A DNA stretch of 64,000 nucleotides from Phorcus lineatus (Eukaryota; Mollusca; Gastropoda; Trochida; Trochidae). Positions 29,571-55,206 of this stretch are shown piece after piece. The position numbers were made by a program, and so were the translations under genes. The notes beneath the pieces were generated by a model. That model searched no databases. It saw only the letters and a list, made by a program, of their open reading frames with translations, and was not told where the DNA came from. How positions within the stretch are numbered: position 1 is the stretch's first letter; the number at the start of each line of letters is the position of its first letter. The stretch lies in the NCBI GenBank assembly GCA_921293015.1, contig OV121083.1, positions 33,224,908-33,288,907 of the forward strand. The letters are read 5' to 3'.

Positions 29571-32500
29571 GCAATATGTATTCATCGGCGGTATATAGAT
29601 ATAAATATATAGAAATGGATGAAATTGGGCGCGAAAAATGTAGGTCAGACGCGATATTGGAAACATAAAATACAGACGACTTTCGATTCTTACAATCGAT
29701 ATATGCTGGCTTTAAGAGTAGAAAATGATGCTTTCAGACGATTTGCCCCAATCAAGGGTCTGTCTGTGAATAGACGAAGGTAGTTAATTGCTGAGGAAGT
29801 TTGCAGTTAACGAATTACCTCCTCATCAGCTGATCGTAACAGTTTTTGCAATTTGTAGTAGACATCTGTTTAAGACAATCAAGAACAAAACAGACCAATA
29901 ATTCAATTCCTAACTTAAGAAACTAATTTCTTTGCAATAATAACTTCCTTAGTTTTCTTCCATTTAGTAACATTAATTCTGATTTCGCTGGAGGCCAAAT
30001 GTCAAAACTTTTTGAAAAACGACGAAGTAAACATACCACGTGCACCAACTTTTGAATACACGCAATTACGTTAATTTGGAACAAGTGTAAACGGAAAAGG
30101 AACACCAAAGAACATTTTTCTAGCACAAGGAGAGGCATAACATAATTGTCTGTCAACTTCATTAGCTTCCCTTCAGACGCAACAAATTAGCTGTTGAGAG
30201 AAGTTCTCTTTATCAAAGTCTTGGAAACGCTCTCCACTCTATTTTAACAAAAGGCCAAAGAAATTCAAAGAGGCAAATTCAACTTATTGTAACTCGATGT
30301 CAGTTGAAGCATTAAATCGGCAGCTAAGTGACAAGTTGCCACTCGTTGAAACCAATCAGGCAAGCAGTAAAAAGACGTTCATGCCACTTGTTGTCAAATA
30401 TTGAGCGACATGGAGAAGAATTTAAACAGAACAACTGACCATTAATTGACTTTTTAAATCTCGAAGACCAATTTCGCGTCTATAGTGAAGACAGATTGAG
30501 AAAAGTGAAACAGTTTCAGGGCCTATAGGCAGGTGAATGACACGAAGTGGGTGTAAATTGGAGTGAAATTGCTTCTTGAGTCCAACAACAGGTCTACAGG
30601 ATTGTTGAGAATCGATCCTGAAGGATGCACATACATTTGTAGGTAGACACTAAGCCCTATGTCGCAAACTTTGTAACTATTCTGCATGGATATTTGGACA
30701 TTTGCAAGATTATGTAGTAAATAATGACCCCGTGCCGAACGGTTATAGCATTTAAATCCGAGGATGTAACTCGAGCAGCGTTTATTCCCATAACGGTTGG
30801 CATCGGGTCATTAAATGTATCTAATATATATATACGATCTTTGTTATAAATGCATGCAACATTGACTTTGAACACCACGATCTAAAAGCGTTTCACCGGT
30901 TTCTCTAATAGATATTAAGATTCGTAAAAGTCAAATGAATGAATGAATTTTAAAGTAAAATTCTAGTCTTGCAATTATAAAAGAACATCGAATTTGCATC
31001 GTGTTTAACATCAGTGTGCGCTAAACAATGCTTTTATATGTCTTTTCTTCGATATCCAAATACACGTATATCCTATTGCATTATACATAAAGTACATCAA
31101 CTGTTAAAAATGATCCCAAACTATATGCAAACAAAATTCGATGGGACATTCCTGTTGATACATACCTGTCGTATTTATATCATCATTTCACAATTGATTT
31201 TAAGCATCAACTGGGTGTGAGACTTTTGTAGCTTAAGTATTTAACATTTGAGAAATTATATTCACTGAAACACTGAAAAATTGAAGCCGAGACTTTCTCT
31301 TCAAGGTTTAATGTGACAAGCTCATTTATATTGATTCATTTATTTGAGTTTTTTACTCAAACATACACAGTAGTTTAGAAGTCCTATTGGTTTTGTCTCA
31401 AGGATTCACACATTGAAAATCATCATATAATCAAACAGAGTTTATTTAGAATGTGAACACAAGCTGTTCAATAAAAATGGAAAATTGTGTCAATTTGTTT
31501 ATTATTGTGAACATACATCATTAATAAGTTACCTTATTTAGCACTAATGATTGCAGACATACAACTAGTGTTTAACTTTTTGTTTATGAATGCTAAAAAG
31601 GTTTTTTCCCCAAATAGGTCTCATATTGCTGTGTACCATAGACTATACATGTGTTGGATGTGATAAATATCTTGGATGATGAACATTCTTCTACATTGGG
31701 TGATATCTCTCAGGTCATTATCCTACTGCCTTCAGATGCTCATGTTTGGTCGTATATTCAGTTGATCTGAAGAATGATATGTTGACTTTAAAAGTTTCAG
31801 ATGATATGAATAATGATGATATGTTTTGCATTGTCGTAACGTTCTAATGATTTGAAAATGCTATATTGTACAATCCATGATTAATCTACAAAGCAGTGTT
31901 TTTTAAATCTAATTTGTTAATGTATCCAGATGTCACATGTTTAATAACTTGTTTGAACGATGGGATTCAATTAGTCTGAGAATTAAGAACTGGCTCGTTC
32001 AGTAACTGGTCGGAGCTTTGTAAAGTCATGTATCTGTAACATCAAAACGTTGTATTTGACTGAACATTTGTTTTTACGTTCAGTAATTGGACTGAACATT
32101 GAGATTTTGTACGCCCAATAGTCTGAACATTAATATGTTGTACATTAGTCCTTTTGTAATAATTGGTGTCAACATTGGAATACTGTTTGTTAACAATATT
32201 GGGATGTTGAAAACTTGGTTTATATAATCAGGTAGCACGTTCAGTTTGCCAAGAAACTGCGAAACCGTGAGTTCAATTAAGGTGAAAATAAGACTGTTTT
32301 CATAAACTGGCCAGTAAAAAAAGATACAAGGTAATGATTAAAAACTTAACCTTAGCACCGATCCAACACCAATGCACGTTCCTACCACCATGAATGTTGC
32401 TAACCCCCCTCAGGTAAACTTTGTCAACACTCAGTTTGATGGTATCGCGAGGAGTTATATAACATTTATATCGAGTTATTAATGATGGAAGACAAGTTCA

Positions 32501-32613: not shown

Positions 32614-32716
32614 TCAAAGTTCCGTGACTTCCTTCTTCTCGTACCAGACGAAGTTGTTGTAGGGTTGTGTTCTCAGGCTAGGGTCACCAATCAGAGATAT
32701 CACTTCTCGGTGTAAT
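32614..32716 (-). CDS. CERKL: CERKL exon 9 (stop codon)
   Basis: 103 nt, residues 450-483 then TGA at 32614-32616. The acceptor is TTGTGTTGCAG|ATTACACC. It completes FEVRLHREVISLIGDPS and ends KKEVTEL. Vertebrate CERKL has HIRLHPRLISLYG and CERK EVRVHCQLVRLFARG at the same place near the C-terminus. A possible minus-strand AATAAA lies about 1.1 kb downstream near 31497-31502; the 3' end is not established. Confidence 0.85.
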
Positions 32717-35700
32717 CTGCAACACAACAAGGATATGGCTGATTATCTACATAATTCATAGAATACATGGGAATAAACAGCTGAAGCTCTGCCAGTGTCA
32801 ACTTTGTACAATGCCAAGGAATGGGGAACATGTGTTTCTCATTCACTATCTCGAGATTTGACAAATGTTAATCTTTAAGTTTCAATAAACATACGAAAAC
32901 GATGTATGTAAATGAATGTGATAAACAACCGGAAAAATAGTGTCATATATGCAATATATTCTAAACATGAAGCTAGCGCTTTTGAACTTATTATCTTTGA
33001 TTTGTTTTTCTTCACAAATGCAAAATATCGTTCAATGGTGAAAAAATCATAGTAGAACATTTTTGTAGGTAGCAATAAACCCAAAAGGTCTCGACTTTGT
33101 GCAACCTTGCTATCTTAATTTGTTTTCTACGCTATCAAATAGTAACTTGTATGTTTCAAGGCGTCGCTCCTGTCCTGGTGTCCTAACAGGGCACCGTTAG
33201 TTAATGGAGCTAGCTGGGTTACAAGAGGTTTTCTCATAATAGTAGTATTACCTGACTTCGAACTGTGGTTTGTCTATAGTGATGACCTCACCGTCTGTGT
33301 TGAGGTAGTATTTATATATGAGTGCCGAATCCCCTTCACCTGTTTGGAGTTTAGGGGCTTTGGGCATACGCACTCTGAACCCTTTGACTTGATACTGATT
33401 TACAAATTCGTAGTCCCACTGAAACAAATAGGTTAAACAAATTCGTAGTCCCACTGAAACATATAGGTTAAACAAATTCGTAGTCCCACTGAAACATAAA
33501 GGTTAAACAAATTCGTAGTCCCACTGAAACATATAGGTTAAACAAATTCGTAGTCCCACTGAAACATATAGGTTAAACAAATTCGTTAAAGCTTTCCTGA
33601 TCAAAAGGATACTCAATGGTTTTAATGAGATTTCCAGTTACCATTTATCTTCAATACATTGAAAGATGAAATAATGTTTGCAACTTAATCATACCTGTAT
33701 CATATATACATCCTACAAAACAACACCATTATATTTTCGAACAATTATGGAGTGACTCATGAAAGATTTGACTTTGATCTAAATCTCGATAGAAGGTAAA
33801 GAAATAAAATCATCCACATTCACCTTGGATTCACAACTTACGCAATCAGAGCTCTTGGATTTAACCTTTCCCAGCTGTTCAATGTGATCCTTAAGTTTAC
33901 ATTTACTAGTTATATACATCGTCATGCAACTGTCTCCAAAACACGCCTCCATGTTGGACTTGTTTTGTTTCCACGTGACCACATATGCGTCCAGTCCATA
34001 CGCCGAGGCGCTGACCGTATGCCACGTGTCGGTCAAGTAGTCAACCTCGATGTCCACTATCCGTCTGTTGATCACAGACCTGACCGGAACCAACTGGAAC
34101 CTTGCCGCTCCCATCCACCTCTGTTCCTCCAAACTCTTCATGATGTCTCCAATCAACCCGAACCCCATCAGCAATCCGGAATAAACACAGAGTTGTCCGC
34201 CCTTGTATATGCCAGCGACGTTTGTTTTCTGCTGATGACCTGGTGAGAAACAATCTAGTTTAAATTAGCTGTAATATTATATGTCCCTATCTCCATTATT
34301 ACATCTAGAGAATTACTCCTTTTGTTGTGTCGCGCAGGAATGAAAAATCAGCCAATTATAAGAGAGCTGGACAAGCACTTCCAATCGCGGGTGAGAGCGA
34401 TTTCTCGTCGCTTTTGAGCACTTTGATTACAAAATCTGTTTGCAACCGATGTACAATGTATCGCAGTGAATTATGTTGAAAACATGATAGCAACACCAAA
34501 GCTGTGCAGGTATTGTTGACGGAATATTTGTGTGTTGTGTATTTATTCATTTGTGTATAAATAAATTCACAAATTAGGTCAGACAATCACAAAAACTTTT
34601 CAAAGGATTACTTTTTAAAAAACGTAGGGCAAACGACAGCATGTGACAGTAGAAAAGATGCACACGAATCTCCTCTTGGATATGTTCAAAGCTGACTTCC
34701 TGCCCTCTTTTTAATCTTCATTTCAAAGTTCGTCCAATGTGAACTGAACATGATGTCGATGAGTAATGTTTTGGATGAAATGACGGATCACTACAGCTAG
34801 ATCGGGTGAGAACAAACGTTATAAAAAACGTGACACGCTGCCGCAACGATGAGCAAGGTACTCGTCAACTTTCTTTGCTCCATTTGTTAGCTTACTTTCT
34901 AGATAAAACTTCATCAGTAGTTAAGAAACTTGTTGCCTAAAATTGATGAGTTTCATAGTGTACTGCTCAACCGGTAGCGCCCCTGCTTACCGAGTACAAT
35001 ATGTATAGCAGCAGTGACCGGGTCTCTCGTGCCGTGCAGGTATTGTGCGATGAAGTCACCGGAACCTGGTGAAAAGGAAGTGTATCATCTGTTACATACC
35101 TGTATGACATGAAACGAAGACAGTAGCACAGTTTCTTTTTATTTGAAATGCTGCATCTAGAATATGAAACAGTTGTGTTCGTGCTATTAATTAAAGATAA
35201 AAACAAACAACGAATGAGATAAATGAGCAAATATGACACATTGAACACAGTGATGCATTCGTCAGAAGCAGCCGATTGTTGATTCTCCTGGACTACTCTA
35301 CAAACCAAGTGTTCGGAGTTTAGCAAAGTCTGCAATATAGCCTACGTATGTCCGCAGCAATGATGAGCAGATGTTAAACCTTCTCACAAGCATAATTTTG
35401 ATAGACAAATGAGATCTTTTATTTATGGTTTAGCATAAATTACTTGCAGGAGTAAGTTTGATCAAAAGGTCGAATATTTTACTAAGGCTTTTGTGAGATC
35501 TATGTTTGCAAAATGACAACAATAAAAACATACATCTATTAGAAACTACCTGCACGAATAATTAAGATCGGCAAGTGATATATTCTGCCGCTGATGCAGC
35601 CTACCTTAGCCTTCCTGCGGGAATAATTATGATGGACAATTTCTTTGTTCTTCTTTTGATTCAACCTGAATTACTCTACCTGCAGGGATGATGCCGACGG

Positions 35701-38700
35701 GAAGTTCTGCAGGTGAGATGAGTGAGTCGGGGTTGTGGTAGTCGATGTTGTTGCGAGTTTGGGCCCGGATCAACAGACCAGTCATACACTCGCTGATGAA
35801 ACCGTCCCCTCCCACAATCACCACCCTAGGTAGAGAGAGGGTGGGTCAGTTAAGGTCACATGTGATTTGAGCTGGTGGGAAGATATTTCTGACTCATTTA
35901 CGCTTTTCATTTGACAAAATGGTTCACTGAAATTAAAGTGATAATTATCGCATTGGCGACGTAATGTTTATGTCTATTATAGTCAAGTTACTCTAGGTTT
36001 TTGTTAACAGAGTAATGGTTCAAGATCAGCCACTTATACATACCCTTCGATATCAGACATGTCGTAGGTTTTGATGAGTTCTATAGCATGCTTGGACCTC
36101 TCCGTCACTTGAAAATAAAGACAAATATGTGTTATTGAAGTGCTGAAAATGGTCGCGATTGAGAAAAGTGTTTTTAACATCGCATGTAAAACATGAATCT
36201 AATCCACATGTGTTCTGATATGAAATATGTCAAAACGGGTTGACAATAATTAATAACATTAGAGGCTTGGTGTATTTTGTCGCAAAGCTGGTAATTCACG
36301 TGCTTTATAATATCATAGCATTGTGACGTCATTTCGTTGAAGAGTTCTAACTAAAAATTGAAAACAATCTCAAAATTATATCTTGCCTAAAAAGGATATG
36401 CATTGGTTATACATGTATGAGTCTCCCGATATACTTTCATGTTTCATAAAAGCTATACAATGACATAATTGTTTGTTCTATACATTGTCAAACTACGCTC
36501 TTGACTCATAGCTTTGCAATTATACGAAGCGCAAAAGTACTGCAATATGAAAATAGCATTGATAATAAAAACAATGCAACTTCATCGTTAGATGTAAACG
36601 TGTAGTGGTAATGAAGTTATTCCTATTGTCACATTTATCAGCATGGTGGTAAGATCATTTTCGGTATAGTTTTTGTCATTTTACCAACATGATGGTAAGA
36701 TCATTGTCGGTATAGTTTTTGTCATTTAACCAGCATGGTGGTAATATCATTGTCGGTATAGTTTTTGTCATTTTACCAACATGATGGTAAGATCATTGTC
36801 GGTATAGTTTTTGTCATTTTACCAACATGGTGGTAAGATCATTGTCAGTATAGTTTTTGTCATTTAACCAGCATGGTGGTAAGATCATTGTCGGTATAGT
36901 TTTCGTCATTTTATCAGCATAGTGGAAGATCATTATCGGTATAGTTTTTGTCATTCTACCAACATGATGGTAAGATCATTGTCGGTAAAGTTTTTGTCAT
37001 TTTACCAACATGGTGGTAAGATCATTGTCGGTATAGTTTTTGTCATTTTACCAACATGATGGTAAGATCATTGTCGGTATAGTTTTTGTCATTTTACCAA
37101 CATGATGGTAAGATCATTGTCGGTAAAGTTTTTGTCATTTTACCAACATGGTGGTAAGATCATTGTCGGTATAGTTTTGTCATTTTACCAGCATGGGGGT
37201 AAGGTCATTGTCAGTATAGTTTTGTCATTTTACCAACATGATGGTAAGTACATTGTCGGTATAGTTTTTGTCATTTTACCAACATGATGGTAAGATCATT
37301 GTCGGTATAGTTTTTGTCATTTTACCAACATGATGGTAAGATCATTGTCGGTATAGTTTTTGTCATTTTACCAGCATGGTGGTAAGATCATTGTCAGTAT
37401 AGTTTTGTCATTTTACCAACTTGATGGTAAGATCATTGTCGGTATAGTTTTTGTCATTTTACCAACATGGTAGTAAGTACATTGTCGGTATAGTTTTGTC
37501 ATTTTACCAACATGGTGGTAAGATCATTGTCGGTATAGTCTTTGTCATTTTACCAGCAAGATGATATGGTGAGGTACCTCGATAATCACATAATAGCGGT
37601 CAAGAACATGAAGGTAAATCTACATGAAGTGCTCATCATGTAAACTAAGACTACACATTCTCTAAACAAGACTAATTGCTTCAGGGGATATTCTCACACA
37701 CTATGAATATTTTACAAACACTTCCTCTTTGTAGTGTTTAATGAATTCATCAGACAGTGGACTTATCAAGCGTAAATATACAAACACGAATACATGTTAC
37801 ATAAATACATAACACGAGGTAAGCAGGTACACAACCCTTCTGTCTAAGGATATAATCTTCAATAATATATGCTGAACATGTTCAAAAATTCACCTCGGGG
37901 TTAATTCCTAATTCTATATTCATGATAAAAGATTTAGTTTTTTGAAGAAATATAACATCTCCCGCTACGAATTAACGCTTCAGATGTTAACTAAAACAAT
38001 TTTTTGGCAATAAATTCAAAACATAGATTTCTTTTCAAAGGAGTATGCAGATCGGACATGTTTCATAAACACTTTATGACATAAACTTGTCCTGGTGTGA
38101 AATTAGATGGTTGGATACTGACAAATCTAATGATTAATTCATCAGCATGTAATTCCATAATTAGTAGTCAATTTGCATCGAATTATTAATAACAAAGGGT
38201 CGATTCAAGAAGTTTACATGCGGCTTGAAGCTGTTGTTATTCGTGATCCAATTGTTGTGGTTGGGTGGTATCATATTTCAGCATAATGTGTCAGTAGGAT
38301 ATACAGTAAGGAAACTGACAAGTTGAGCCCTTGTACTTAAACTGCATGTATTACAAAAAGTCAAATTAAACATTAACAATATGAACTTGTGTGGATCAAA
38401 TCTTCAAAGTTCATCACATTATCCGTGTGACTGATGCCACAGTGAAATAGAACATCATGTTGAAATGTTGAACTAGACTAAACATATCAGCAGAAAGCAT
38501 TTTTAAGAAAATATTTATGCTTGATTAGATCACGTGAACTTACTATACAATTAGGTTGTAGATGGGGAATATAAACTTATTTTTACGCCTTTAAGAATTA
38601 TCATAGTGATGACGACCTCGCAGATGTTACGATAATTCATCAGATTGAACATGAACCATCTACACTTGTTTACAACCTTTTCATTATATTCATATAGATA

Positions 38701-41700
38701 CATGTATGTAGTAAATATTGTTCATCAAATTATTCCAAACGAGGACGATATTGAAAGAACTGTTTATAACCATAGTCGTTTTAATTATCCATGACATATT
38801 TTCCAAACAATTGAATCAGCAGTAAACAGGGGTGAGATCAGGTCTGTAAAGACCGTACTAATATCAACACCCGTACGAGGCACTCTTTAATTAAACTAAG
38901 CTAATTGAAGTTATTTGCACTCTAATTAAAATAGATCTCCCCGCTCCCTGTCTTGTGGTAGTTACGCTCTGATTTCAAGGATATTGAGATTTGTTGAAAA
39001 TAATCTCAACAAATACACACATGACATAACATATCACGAAAAAATGCCACTTCTGCCAAAGCATCACTTAACGAGGCCACGTACAAACTGAACTTGAGTG
39101 AGTGAGAGCCAGTATATGAATATCTTTGAATGGAATGGTAACCATGTATTACCCACAACCTCGGTGGTGATGCCGCCCATGGCAAGAACTGGCTCCCCTC
39201 GGCGTCTGAATACCGACCTGGCCTCCCCCTTCCCGCTCACAGGGTTGATCAATACTAGGTATTTCCGCACAGGGTAGCGTTCTGAAACATATACATATAT
39301 GTTCTGTTATATATCATATTAAAGTTAAAAAGTTTGAAAAACAGACAGCCGTACTGCACTGAGTAAGTTTTTATAAAGCATCAGCGGTGGATTTGGGACT
39401 GCTACATGTTCCGAATAGACATAAGAAATTATAACCTAAACGTGTATAGAAGCTATTTGCCAAGTAATAAGGGTGTCTCTCGCCTGTGTTCATATAACCA
39501 GGTCCAGCTTAGGTATTACTAGTGGATACACAGAGTTGGCTATTTTATCACTTCAGCTGCAATGATCGTATGATACGGCATATAGAGTCTGAGTATTAAC
39601 TTGAACACAATCACGTTATTACGTCAGTATGTACCGTAAATCCAGCTAAGCATTGATATTTATGACAGAACCACTTAAATATCTATATTTGATAAAAATT
39701 CATTTACGATAGCTTCGAAAGCATCTTATCAATTGGCAATGTATTATCATAAGCGTCAAATCAAACAGCCTGCTTAGATTCAGAAAGTTTCATTGCCATA
39801 CATTGCCTCCTCTTGGAAGATAAAGTGTCTATTTATACGAGTCCATCAAAATAAGAAACACAAATCTGTCATTTAACTGAGATTGATGTATGCTGGTTGC
39901 AAGCCAGGACGACTACAATCAGATCATTATATTTTTGACAAGATATCATGCAAACAAAAGTTGTTTTTAGTTTTCATGAATATTTTCAAGTTTTTGGAAG
40001 AATCCTTCTTTAGATGCACTAAACGAACTTAACTTTGTTATTCAAATTTCAATTTTGAAGCGTATATTCCAACTTTCTTTCAAAGCTATTTCTACATAAC
40101 AAGTGGTTTCATTGTCATGTTGTCTCTATTTGAGTTTTCAATAATAATGTGTTTTTAAAATAAATAACCTTTAACCTGTCATCCCTTTTTCATAAGAGCT
40201 TACTATTTACGCTTTTGTGAAAACATTATATGAACATAAACTGGTATAATAACAGCGTAATCGCTACGCTGCGATGAAGCCAGTTTACTCCACCATTCGG
40301 AAGTGCGAGGTTATGAAATCATCCATACACAAATGTATCCCTTGTTGCATTCGAAATCAATGGGGCGAATCTTGTACCCCGAAAGACCCCATTGACATAC
40401 ATACAGGCTCTGTTTGAGTTGCGAGGATCTGCTATAATAGAGGAGTATGAACTACATAATACAAGATCGCCTGTGTTTCCTCAGTGCTTACATGCCGCTA
40501 TATAACTCTTAACTAAATGCAATTTCAACAACAAAACATCAGGTATTATGAAAAAAGGTAACACGGTGCATCGTATCAAATTTCAATTGTGGCTTGTGTC
40601 AATATATAAAAAAGTGTTCTCAGTACTTAAGATGTGTACATTATGCATGGGGTTCAAGGGAAGAGGTTGTTGGGATACAAAGCCATGTTTGAGAAGAACA
40701 CAATGCTGCAGATCTCAGTAAAGAGGCTGGGAAGCTGGGGGACACGGTGTACTTATGTCGTGTAGATGCACCACAATAGCAACTAATATGTTCAGTGTCA
40801 CTGGGTGCATATGACATGAACATGTCTTCTAAGAGATGAATGATGCAGACTTGAGAGTATTTGAAAACTCATATTGTGAAATTTACTAGATGAATGATAG
40901 CAATGTACGGATTTGGTTGAAAATTCTTATTTGATTTTCATGACTTAAAATAACAAAGGCACAAGTTTGTGCGTCTTTGAAGTATTTTATGGTCGATAGA
41001 GTTAATCTTTCTCATGTAAGAAGAAAAATAAGGGTTTTATTGCCCTACAAAGTGAAGTTTTATGGTATACACGCCTTCTTAAATGTATGCATTGTGGTTC
41101 CTGTCAAGTGCACTATGTGCCTACTGATTAAATATGCCGATCTTATCCATGTGGTATGTGATGACATAAATGCTTGATGCAGCAACTAAAATGATGCTTT
41201 CCGATTTAAAACAATAATGAAAGATTATTTTTGTTCGATAATAAATTATGCTATGCTGGTTACCATGGGTATGGGATGTCCATGTTATGGGTGATGCAGT
41301 TTGGCAGTGTTTTGTAATTGACAGTATCACTGCATATACATCATCATGTTAGTGAGATGATTACACAATGCTGCGGTCATGGCATGCTCCAGTGACGTCG
41401 CGAACAACTGTTTGAATGAGAAAAGCTGCCAAGCAAAGACGACACGTAAAAAAACGATATATCTAACTTACTCTATCTTTTATCGCACTGTTGACGAACG
41501 ATGTTGGTTGGTTGATTTCATAATGCCTCATACAGAAACATATGTCTTCCTATTGTACACGAGTCAACATAACAATTCAACTAGACATAGGCTGCCTTGG
41601 TCAAATCTAAATAATTTATATATTCACGGACATGCTTCTATAAAATCTCCCTTTGATGTTTTAAAAAATCCTATTTAAATTTCAAAGCTAAAAGCTACCA

Positions 41701-44700
41701 GAGAATGACTTTCAACAAGCTTTCAGAGATACTTTAGAGAACGATTTTTAACAAGCTTTCAGAGATACTTTAGAGAACGATTTTTAACAAAGGATCTTAT
41801 GCTTCTGTTTGGAATCCGATCTAGTTGTGACTAAGATAGGTAGAATGATCGCCTGCCATCACCTGCTTCTGTTAGCAGGACAGGACCGTCACGGTACAAG
41901 GGAAATATGCCATTTTACAACGCTCGGTTAAGCCAGGCAACGGACCGTGCAAAACTGTAATTGAAATGCCGTGAGACGATTTATTGGCTTGATGGGTTTC
42001 TCAAGACGCAGACAATTATCTTATGTCATTTTGAAACGTAGGTACTTTATTGACACATTAAGTGATAAGCATGCAACCCATGCTATGATATATAGCAGTA
42101 TTGTCATGAAGTACTTTAACATGTCGTGTAACTGGATTATCGTCAGCTCGTATGAGCGTCTGAAGCATCCGTACATGGGTAGAGTTCATACTTTAATGAG
42201 TCAGGAAGTATGGTGGTTGCTGAAAATAAAAACAAATTTGTAACGGGTTTTCTGTTTATCATGGTTCTTCCAACCTACTTGAATGTATTTGAGTTTTTAA
42301 AATATTTAGAGATGCAGGTTATTGCTGGTTAAAATGATGATAAACAGTATTTAACAGTAGTTTAGTTTAAACAAGATTTTAAACTGTAAATATCGCTTAC
42401 AATATGTCGCATATAAAGTCTGAAATGTTACATGGTTTTAGTATCTTTTTACAAAACTATCTTCTGATTTGAAATAGCTTCTAAATAGCGTTACTTTATG
42501 TTGTAGACCTCTTACTTGCAATATTTAAAATTTCACACGAAGATATACAATCGCATTTTCTGTTTCAGGAAATGTTGTTAATTCTTTGTGTAAGCATGTT
42601 CGTCTTAATCGGGCATAAACGTATAAATGCAGTGTTAAAGTATATAAAGAAAGTGTATTTATAATAAATCCTACATAATATGAACATACAGCTTTATACA
42701 AAACGTGTTTTCACATTAACTGAGTATGCTAGTGCAAATATCATGTTATTTGGGATGCCTTTGAGGTATAGTAGCATTTCAATACAGGTGTGCAGATGCA
42801 TTCTTCTTTAAGGCAACTATTTATCATACCCCACAATTAACCTTAACATTTTTGGCTGGTCGTTGAAGTGACCAGGGATAAAATTTCGAAAACACTAATT
42901 TTTATTTTTGTCTAAACAATATTGTATAAGTTATCAACTGCTTTAAAATTAGTCATGTTTGTTCCTTTGCACTAAGTTAATGTCATTGTGTTGATCTTAT
43001 TGAGTCATTGAGTCGATATAAACATTCGAAATTTAACGAAATTTAAATTTCGAAATTATGACCCCGTCTGTCTATTTCAACATGTCAAAATTCGAATTTT
43101 TGCACGAGAAACCAAACAATCCATAAATAAGTTAAAGAATGGCGATTTCATTCATAGACAATGGGTGATCCTTACAAGTAAGTACATGATATTTGCACTA
43201 CGATTCAGTGGTAAGTGAACAAACTTTCGGTATATAGCTGTACTGAACATGCAGTTCGGAAATGTAAATATCAATATATGCTATCGCATGTAATCCATAT
43301 GTGCAGTATTTTTGTATCTGAATAAATATCATAGTATATTACATCAGAAACTTAAATTAATTTGGTTTTCTTTGCTAATATACGACGTGATATTAGAGTA
43401 CACAAGATAAACCGAAGATATTTACCGTTGACTATCGTTCTGAGTTTTTCTCTGAACTTGGAGCACGTCTCGGCGTCACCTTTGAACTTGACCTTCCTCA
43501 CCTCAAGGTTACAACTTCCGGCGTTGGCAGCGTAGTTGATGGTAAATGAATCCTGGTCTTCCTTAAGACTTTTAACTTTCTTGCTGATAGAGATAAGTCT
43601 CCGCAGAGGAATAACACCTGAAAATACATCATCCATGAAACTTTTGAACTTTTGATTCTGTAAGCTTTTGGGTGAAATTTAACCCTTTCTAGAAAACAAA
43701 CTGCATGTAGGGTAATATGACATTATGGTGTTACGATTAGGGCTATTTCTTATAAAGAAATCGAAAAAGTAATTTTGAAAGTATCTACCAACCATTAAGT
43801 TTATAAGATGGCCCCTACACCTTAGAAATAAGAAGTAAAGCATACGAAAGAATGAAAGTTATGTTACACATAAACATTATTCCCAGAAATCTAACTCATG
43901 AATGACTAAGAGTTTATTCCGAAACGTCTTTTTCTTAAAGGATAAGGACATAGAGTTCAGAAACTTATCATGAGCCATTCCGTAAAGATAAAAACATCAA
44001 AGTCGAGATGTTCTTCCTTTTGTTTAGTTCCACCATCAGCGATTTGTTGTTATCATCAACTATTATTTATTTTCTATTCTGTATACTTATTCACCTCTAT
44101 AAACGATTACGATTACATTAACATCGAATCGGTTTGCGCCAAGGATGGCCACTTGTTCCGTTGCGACTTTTAGTACCATATCTTGTGAACTGATATGACA
44201 GCGTGATTAAGGGTCTTTACGATACAGTGATATGGAAGGAATGCTGTACAACAATGGCTGATGTCCTGCTCGGGTGGTTCTGTATGGGAGGACACCAAAG
44301 AAGATAGAGGGCGACCAAGCGTTGAGGCTCTCCGGTACACCTTGATTATATACACTATCCTGGACAGATAGTCACATAACAGAAACAGTTCAAATACCTA
44401 CATAGTTTGGGAACATGAGAAACTGTTATCTGATTGGTACACCCGAGATAACAGCGATAAAGTTTAAGTTTACTTTGATGTTATTTTTTGTTTTATTTAC
44501 AGATTTCGCCAATTCAACATGTATGTAAGTAAATGTTCCATGTAGATTGGAATGCAGTTCTTATGGGAAGTTAGATGTATTGTATGTGATGATTGCATCA
44601 AGTACAGTTTGCGATGTCTTCAAGATACAGAATTATGTTGAGTACAGGATCAAGTTTATTCGAAGTATGGACACGTGCATGCCGCTTCTTGAGTAAAGTA

Positions 44701-53939: not shown

Positions 53940-55206
53940 CTAAATATTTACAAGTTAGAATCAAATGATGACTTAGTATTTGCAAATGAGTTAAACTCAT
54001 TTTACTCTAGATTTGATAGTTGTATTTTTTCAGAAAAAAAGAAACAATGTACTTGAATCACTCCCACCATGTGAGGTGTTAGATATTTCTAAATATGATG
54101 TGATAACGTCTTTTGTTAGATAAATTCACATGAAGCCTGTGGACCTGATAATTTGCTAGGTGTAGTTCTAAAAGAGTGCATAGTGCAACTGGCTGGTATT
54201 TTCCAAAAGATTTTTCAATTATTTTACATTTCCATCATGTTCCCACTCTTTGGAAATCATAAAAAAGTATTCCATTGCCAAAAAAGAAAAACCCCTCTGT
54301 CAATAATGATTACAGACCAGTAGCTCTCACCTCTGTTGCTATGAAATGTCTAGAAGGAATTGTGAAGAATTTCGTGTTAAAGAATGTGATTGACGTTTTA
54401 GACCCCTATCAATTTGCATATAGAGCACGGCGTGGAGTAGATGATGCAACAGTAACTCTGCTTAATAACATCTATAAACACTTGGAAAATTATAGTTCAT
54501 ATGTCCGAATAATGTTTGTTGACTTCTCCTCTGCTTTTAATACGATTCAGCCACATCTGTTACTTGATAAACTTTGTCATATGAATGTAAACTCAAATAT
54601 CATTAGATGGATACATTCTTTCCTTGTTAACAGACAGCAATTTGTACAAGTCAATAATGTTAAATATTCAACTGTATGCACATCTACTGGTGCGCCACAG
54701 GGTTGTGTTGTTTCGCCAATTTTGTTCATTTTGTACACAAAGGATTGTTTCTCAAATGCTGATTCGTGTTTTACCATTAAATTTTCTGACTACAGTTGTA
54801 GGCCTAATGGGAGAGCCAGAACTTGCCTATAGATCCGAGCTATCAAGATTTGTGGATTGGTGTAAATCGAAGTTTTTTTTATGTTTGAACGTTCAAAAAA
54901 CTACAGAAATGATTTATTTTAGGAGAACAAAGTCAACATTACAATCTGTGTATATTGATGGAAATAATATAGAAAGAGTAAATGAATATAAGTACTTAGG
55001 TACTATGATTAATCTTAACTCTCTTGGAATGAGAATACTGAGAAAATATATAAGAAAGGACAACAACGTTTACATTTCTTGTGGAAACTGAAATACTTTT
55101 AAATTGATCAAACCATCCTGATGTTGTTTTACAGAACCTTCATTCAAAGCGTCCTTACATTTAACCTTTGGGACAATAAAGATTATCTGATCTTATCTTA
55201 TCTTAT
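53940..55206 (+). pseudogene. 5'-truncated, frameshifted LINE reverse transcriptase (CR1/Rex1-like)
   Basis: The middle frame (54275-54832) carries canonical reverse transcriptase blocks in order: PKKKNPSVNNDYRPVALTS, then FVDFSSAFNTIQP, then STGAPQGCVVSPILFILYT. Pieces of the upstream part (ANELNSFYSRFD; HEACGPDN) and downstream part (LSRFVDWCKSKFFLCLNVQK; YKYLGTMINLNS) survive in other frames. A frameshift falls at the aspartate-pair catalytic motif, which reads FSDY before the frame ends, so the enzyme would be dead. The 3' end has AATAAA at 55175 and a TTATC/TTATCT tail to 55206, typical of CR1/Rex1-type LINEs. The organism's RT family is assigned by the DFSSAFNTI style of motif. Confidence 0.88.

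Follow-up and report, generated by a model that had tools for sequence, protein, structure and literature searches.

The host gene and its paralog

The window is a stretch of 64,000 nucleotides of Phorcus lineatus DNA, to whose first letter all coordinates refer. On its minus strand lies a gene in which a tandem array of 35-bp units spans an intron–exon boundary. The mapped exons and the intron that contains the array are as follows:

43426-43617, 39153-39281, 36044-36107, 35680-35825, and 34991-35065, minus strand: upstream exons, containing the DAGK_cat region and the stretch before it
33842..34239, minus strand: exon E8, ending at the donor TGC|GTAAGT
33419..33841, minus strand: intron between E8 and E9, 423 bp, containing the array
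33252..33418, minus strand: exon E9 (called exon 8 in a preliminary description of this DNA), from the innermost acceptor, in phase 0, to the donor CAG|GTAATA
32617..32716, minus strand: probable last exon E10, LHREVISLIGDPSLR..., with a stop codon just beyond

The eight exons splice with AG/GT ends into one open frame of 423 residues, and the model, whose upstream exons cover 34991..43617, stops short of the 5' end of the gene. A first spliced version of the protein, which had an older end of E8 and lacked E10, comprised 395 residues and was used for several comparisons. This version matched the DAGK_cat domain in Pfam (2.3e-23) and sphingosine kinase 1 among PDB sequences (2.2e-15), and it was 33% identical over 234 residues to human CERK. 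A Pfam match of this version to CERK_C was not found at E up to 1, and CERK_C matched weakly, below the Pfam cut-off, in two exons of a paralog (E 0.16). By these similarities, the host appears to be a ceramide-kinase-like gene.

The local search for copies covered 264 kb, comprising the window plus 100 kb on each side, and detected a diverged ceramide-kinase-like paralog on the plus strand at window-relative positions of about -17062 to -10291, ~43 kb away. The two genes thus lie on opposite strands, tail to tail. The paralog's counterpart of E9 (FDYEFVEQHRVQGYRV...) opens at the same place and in the same phase after a single acceptor (TTTCTCCTCAG), and the intron before it, of 328 bp, has no array. 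As the same intron with the same phase has only one acceptor in the paralog, the array would be derived in the host gene, or else it would have been lost in the paralog. A comparison of E9 with its counterpart over 54 codons gave a pS of 0.85 and a pN of 0.28 by a simple count, with one gap placed by hand and pS near saturation, and E9 looks like a real exon under purifying selection. The E8 region of the paralog apparently contains one more intron.

The assignment of E10 rests on the paralog, because the exon scan alone was unconvincing: E10 scored 15 and came second to a candidate at 29709 that scored 21, and scores in the opposite-strand control went up to 18. In the paralog, the exon after its E9 reads LHRNVVPLFG (by eye), which supports E10 of the host gene. 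In alignment to human CERK, E9 without E10 scored 39, which 9 of 2000 shuffles equaled or surpassed, and E9 with E10 scored 51, which none of 2000 did. A Pfam search of the E9 frame returned no family, and E9 and E10 together retrieved just three weak, unrelated matches from the PDB sequences, the best being ribosomal bL21 with an E of 0.1.

It had been supposed in the preliminary description that an exon is missing beside the array. The comparison with the paralog identified the segment thought absent as the tail of E8, the donor of which had to be moved: the paralog's TGT|GTAAGT pointed to the matching TGC|GTAAGT, which is better than, and replaced, the AAG|GTGAAT considered before. The E8 tail of the paralog (RNPKGDKMVPCFGDNALTLFLTSKCSLSKHVQQLIKV) aligns to RSPRGLSPAAHLGDGSSDLILIRKCSRFNFLRFLIRH of human CERK across the supposed gap with a score of 51 (reached by none of 2000 query shuffles), and the E8 tails of the host gene and the paralog align over the same stretch with a score of 204 (none of 2000 shuffles). 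When aligned to human CERK on its own, the host E8 tail did not stand out, with a score of 25.0 (783 of 2000 shuffles as good) or, at a softer gap cost, of 35.0 (175 of 2000). A direct search of the gap between E8 and E9 found no such exon, and a counterpart of the long human CERK loop that precedes the RSPRGLSPAAHLGDGSSDLILIRKCSRFNFLRFLIRH segment appears in neither gene in these alignments. As the paralog bridged the gap and joins the same two exon regions without a recognizable exon between them, we dropped the idea of a missing exon, which the comparison does not support.

The tandem array and its acceptor copies

Tandem Repeats Finder (TRF) reported the array at 33402-33586 with a period of 35, 5.3 copies, 98% matches, and a score of 356, as compared to a highest score of 73 across 20 dinucleotide-preserving shuffles of the window. 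Its parts are:

33578..33590, minus strand: 13-bp remnant, TTTAACGAATTTG, at the outer edge of the array, without an acceptor
33438..33577, minus strand: four decoy units, with first 'exon' bases at 33558, 33523, 33488, and 33453
33403..33577, minus strand: all five complete head-to-tail 35-bp units, with the sequence TTTAACCTATATGTTTCAG|TGGGACTACGAATTTG or one that differs from it by a single base

Each unit consists of the intron end with TTTCAG followed by the 16 bases that open the exon, and one further shared T brings the exonic match to the 17 bases that had been described. The authentic boundary, with 33418 as its first exon base and joined to E9, is located at the edge of the array, and the four extra copies lie upstream, inside the intron. 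The description of an acceptor copied five times is correct for the total number of copies, but only four of these are decoys, and the 13-bp remnant, which we read as a unit that lost its acceptor, contributes none. A branch-point-like TTTAAC is present in every unit (read by eye). Two of the 35 unit columns vary across the five copies, both of them in the intronic part, which is too few for a test of selection on the array. The array sequence had one match in the assembly among the best candidates scored, so that one haplotype was covered.

Each of the four upstream copies has the sequence TGG GAC TAC GAA TTT GTT TAA and thus encodes WDYEFV followed by a stop, whereas the innermost copy at 33418 is the sole one that continues into coding sequence, as WDYEFVNQYQ.... 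This agrees with the earlier view that the innermost copy alone is productive, whereas the others would add six correct residues before a TAA.

In amphioxus, minisatellite-like duplications of intron–exon boundaries, the so-called 'mirages', are reported for Adh3, BflGb6, BflGb9, TnC, and PGBD5 (PMC3087553, PMC3902484), and as judged from its sequence, our array has the structural features of such a mirage: the unit extends across an intron–exon boundary and includes its splice signal, with the position of the boundary being set by the same-phase intron of the paralog and by the coding constraint on E9. As tandem arrays are error-prone, and as the BflGb6 mirage was apparently misassembled in the genome draft (PMC3087553), a misassembled repeat number or boundary has to be considered here as well. 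However, five 35-bp units fit within a single modern long read, the units carry distinct variants, and the array sits in a 65-Mb contig, which makes an artefact very unlikely.

Within each unit, an AG and a GT also flank 15 nt in phase 0, and if the GT in ATTT|GTTTAA were used as a donor, every unit could add an in-frame 15-nt micro-exon (WDYEF). There is a precedent in a potato gene, which gained an intron via a boundary-spanning tandem duplication whose exonic part supplied the donor (PMC4974935). Yet ATTT|GTTTAA is far from the donor consensus, and the introns between neighboring units could be just 20 nt long, so that we regard a micro-exon source as extremely improbable. Two further types were considered and rejected, namely intron gain by AGGT tandem duplication (Rogers type), as the unit contains no AGGT but just the GT in ATTT|GTTTAA, and NAGNAG tandem acceptors, which are 3 nt apart and not 35 nt as found here.

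Predicted use of the decoys and proposed origin of the array

Use of a decoy acceptor would place the TAA at exon nucleotides 19-21, at a distance of 146+35k nt from the next junction, which amounts to 181, 216, 251, or 286 nt. Transcripts with a stop codon farther than 50-55 nt upstream of a junction are usually subject to decay, and therefore decay would be expected for all decoy products, in line with the early stop that the preliminary description had foreseen. In the gene model, whose E10 is supported by the paralog, the decoy stops would thus be situated well upstream of a junction, as expected for regulated splicing coupled to decay.

On a rough scale that was built from human frequencies, the innermost acceptor scored 3.95 and the decoys, from the outermost to the innermost, scored 1.7, 1.7, 4.0, and 1.7; the seven other acceptors of the host gene ranged from 2.4 to 7.2. 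The last 12 intronic bases (TATATGTTTCAG) are common to three of the four decoys and the gene's own acceptor at 39281. By these measures the decoys are not clearly weak, and acceptor strength does not appear to settle the choice. Some leak to the decoys would thus be likely. When the intron was folded as RNA together with the exon, the true acceptor did not stand out from the decoys either, with an unpaired probability of the AG of 0.24 for the true site and of 0.21, 0.29, 0.57, and 0.29 for the decoys.

It had been proposed in the preliminary description that the decoys compete with the true acceptor and that, since their use leads to a stop and to decay, the number of units sets the level of the kinase mRNA. 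The intact acceptor and early stop in all four decoys, the downstream junction at the above distances, and the one decoy with a score on a par with that of the true site are consistent with this copy-number rheostat. Minisatellite length is also expected to vary, as in BflGb6 (PMC3087553), and variation of the copy number between individuals is plausible. However, the published mirages are reported to leave splicing undisturbed (PMC3087553, PMC3902484), and the location of the array could be a matter of chance. With TRF cut-offs of a score of 100 or more and a period of 10 or more, there are 26 distinct arrays, which account for 5.9% of the 264 kb and for 11% of the mapped span of the host gene, and by simple arithmetic that ignores purifying selection, ~0.8 of the 14 mapped splice sites would be expected within an array at random. 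One overlap of an array with a boundary is thus expected per such gene at this density, and we consider a rheostat unlikely.

Directly visible are the array, the gene model of the host with its reading frames and stops, and the lone acceptor of the paralog. As the probable explanation, we favor that the array is a near-neutral acceptor mirage in a ceramide-kinase-like gene. It would have originated by tandem duplication of a 35-bp segment that runs across the 3' splice site of the intron and 16 bases into the following exon, and the copies would then have grown into the intron by slippage or unequal exchange. As every copy has an intact acceptor and only the innermost joins the frame, correct splicing would have to prefer the innermost acceptor or tolerate a leak to the four decoys. 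The decoy transcripts would end at the TAA and probably be destroyed, and the overall effect would be close to neutral, with the intron merely being lengthened. A much bolder reading is that the array acts as a dosage dial, in which the decoy count determines what fraction of the ceramide-kinase-like transcripts is directed to decay and the length of the array works as a heritable switch of splicing, with an array that is naturally variable and mirages that occur genome-wide in this lineage as in amphioxus; we give this combination little credence. The array offers a natural test of how the spliceosome picks one among five near-identical acceptors, for which the paralog would serve as a single-acceptor control.

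Among the 26 arrays, one spans a boundary with homology support and another one probably does; the other 24 were screened just for open frames at their edges. The probable second case is at window-relative 134164-135831, 70 kb beyond the window, where 20 occurrences, counting the first, of the donor pattern CAGGCAGA(C/T)TG(G/T)GGT(A/G)AG were found, for example CAGGCAGACTGGGGTAAG and variants. These follow a plus-strand exon-like frame that ends with DRYQADWG|GTAAGA, and the array is probably a donor-side mirage. The putative exon at window-relative 134001 is defined by its open frame and splice sites and had no Pfam or PDB match; a further exon-like frame near 132600 had no Pfam match. With this second probable case in a region of 264 kb, mirages may be frequent in the genome.

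Other features of the region were noted in passing. A 36-bp array with 14.7 copies at window-relative 105864-106391 has TTTCAG in nearly every unit and is open in one frame as HNVSEYFFIVDR repeats; it was rejected as a mirage, as an exon search alongside found none. An intron of the host gene contains a 46-bp array of about 20 copies (36626-37558), in which many minus-strand units have a donor-like TTGGTAAAA. An open frame at 54263-54829 resembles, by eye, a LINE-type reverse transcriptase.

Comparison with known systems

In literature searches by topic rather than by gene name, which covered repeats in relation to splice sites, no apparent description of this array was found among the titles and first lines of abstracts listed. 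The human IFI6 (6-16) gene reportedly has a minisatellite with multiple splice donors (Turri et al. 1995). It is similar to our array in that a minisatellite multiplies a splice site, but it concerns donors, which according to the title are provided in the transcript, and not acceptors as here.

In Drosophila, new introns are reported to have arisen by tandem duplication (PMC2891723), and the same is described for the potato RdRp gene, where a duplication across an intron–exon boundary together with a cryptic donor led to the gain of an intron (PMC4974935). The potato case differs from ours, as there a single duplication with a cryptic donor gave the new intron, whereas a good-quality donor appears to be absent from our array. 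Human segmental duplications are described as containing variable tandem repeats with units of 30 bp and 4 copies on average, some of them at exon–intron boundaries (PMC2812944). They share with our array the short repeated units at a boundary, but they belong to recent human paralogs, and novel introns and coding repeats are among the reported effects (PMC2812944).

The closest structural agreement is with the amphioxus mirages, which likewise consist of a tandemly duplicated boundary with many copies that carry splice signals. In BflGb6, which is also acceptor-side, the 3' end of the intron and the 5' part of exon 2 are duplicated, with 6 units on one haplotype and 3 on the other (PMC3087553). 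RT-PCR and the Adh3 data are reported to suggest that regular splicing is not disturbed in amphioxus (PMC3087553), and Adh and TnC are said to yield no aberrant mRNAs in the report that added PGBD5 as a further case (PMC3902484). The systems differ in unit length, which is 35 bp here, 10-72 bp in Adh3, and about 150-160 bp in the globins (PMC3087553), and in the affected gene, which is ceramide-kinase-like here, where the likeness is one of sequence structure. Mirages may extend beyond the lancelets in which they are described.
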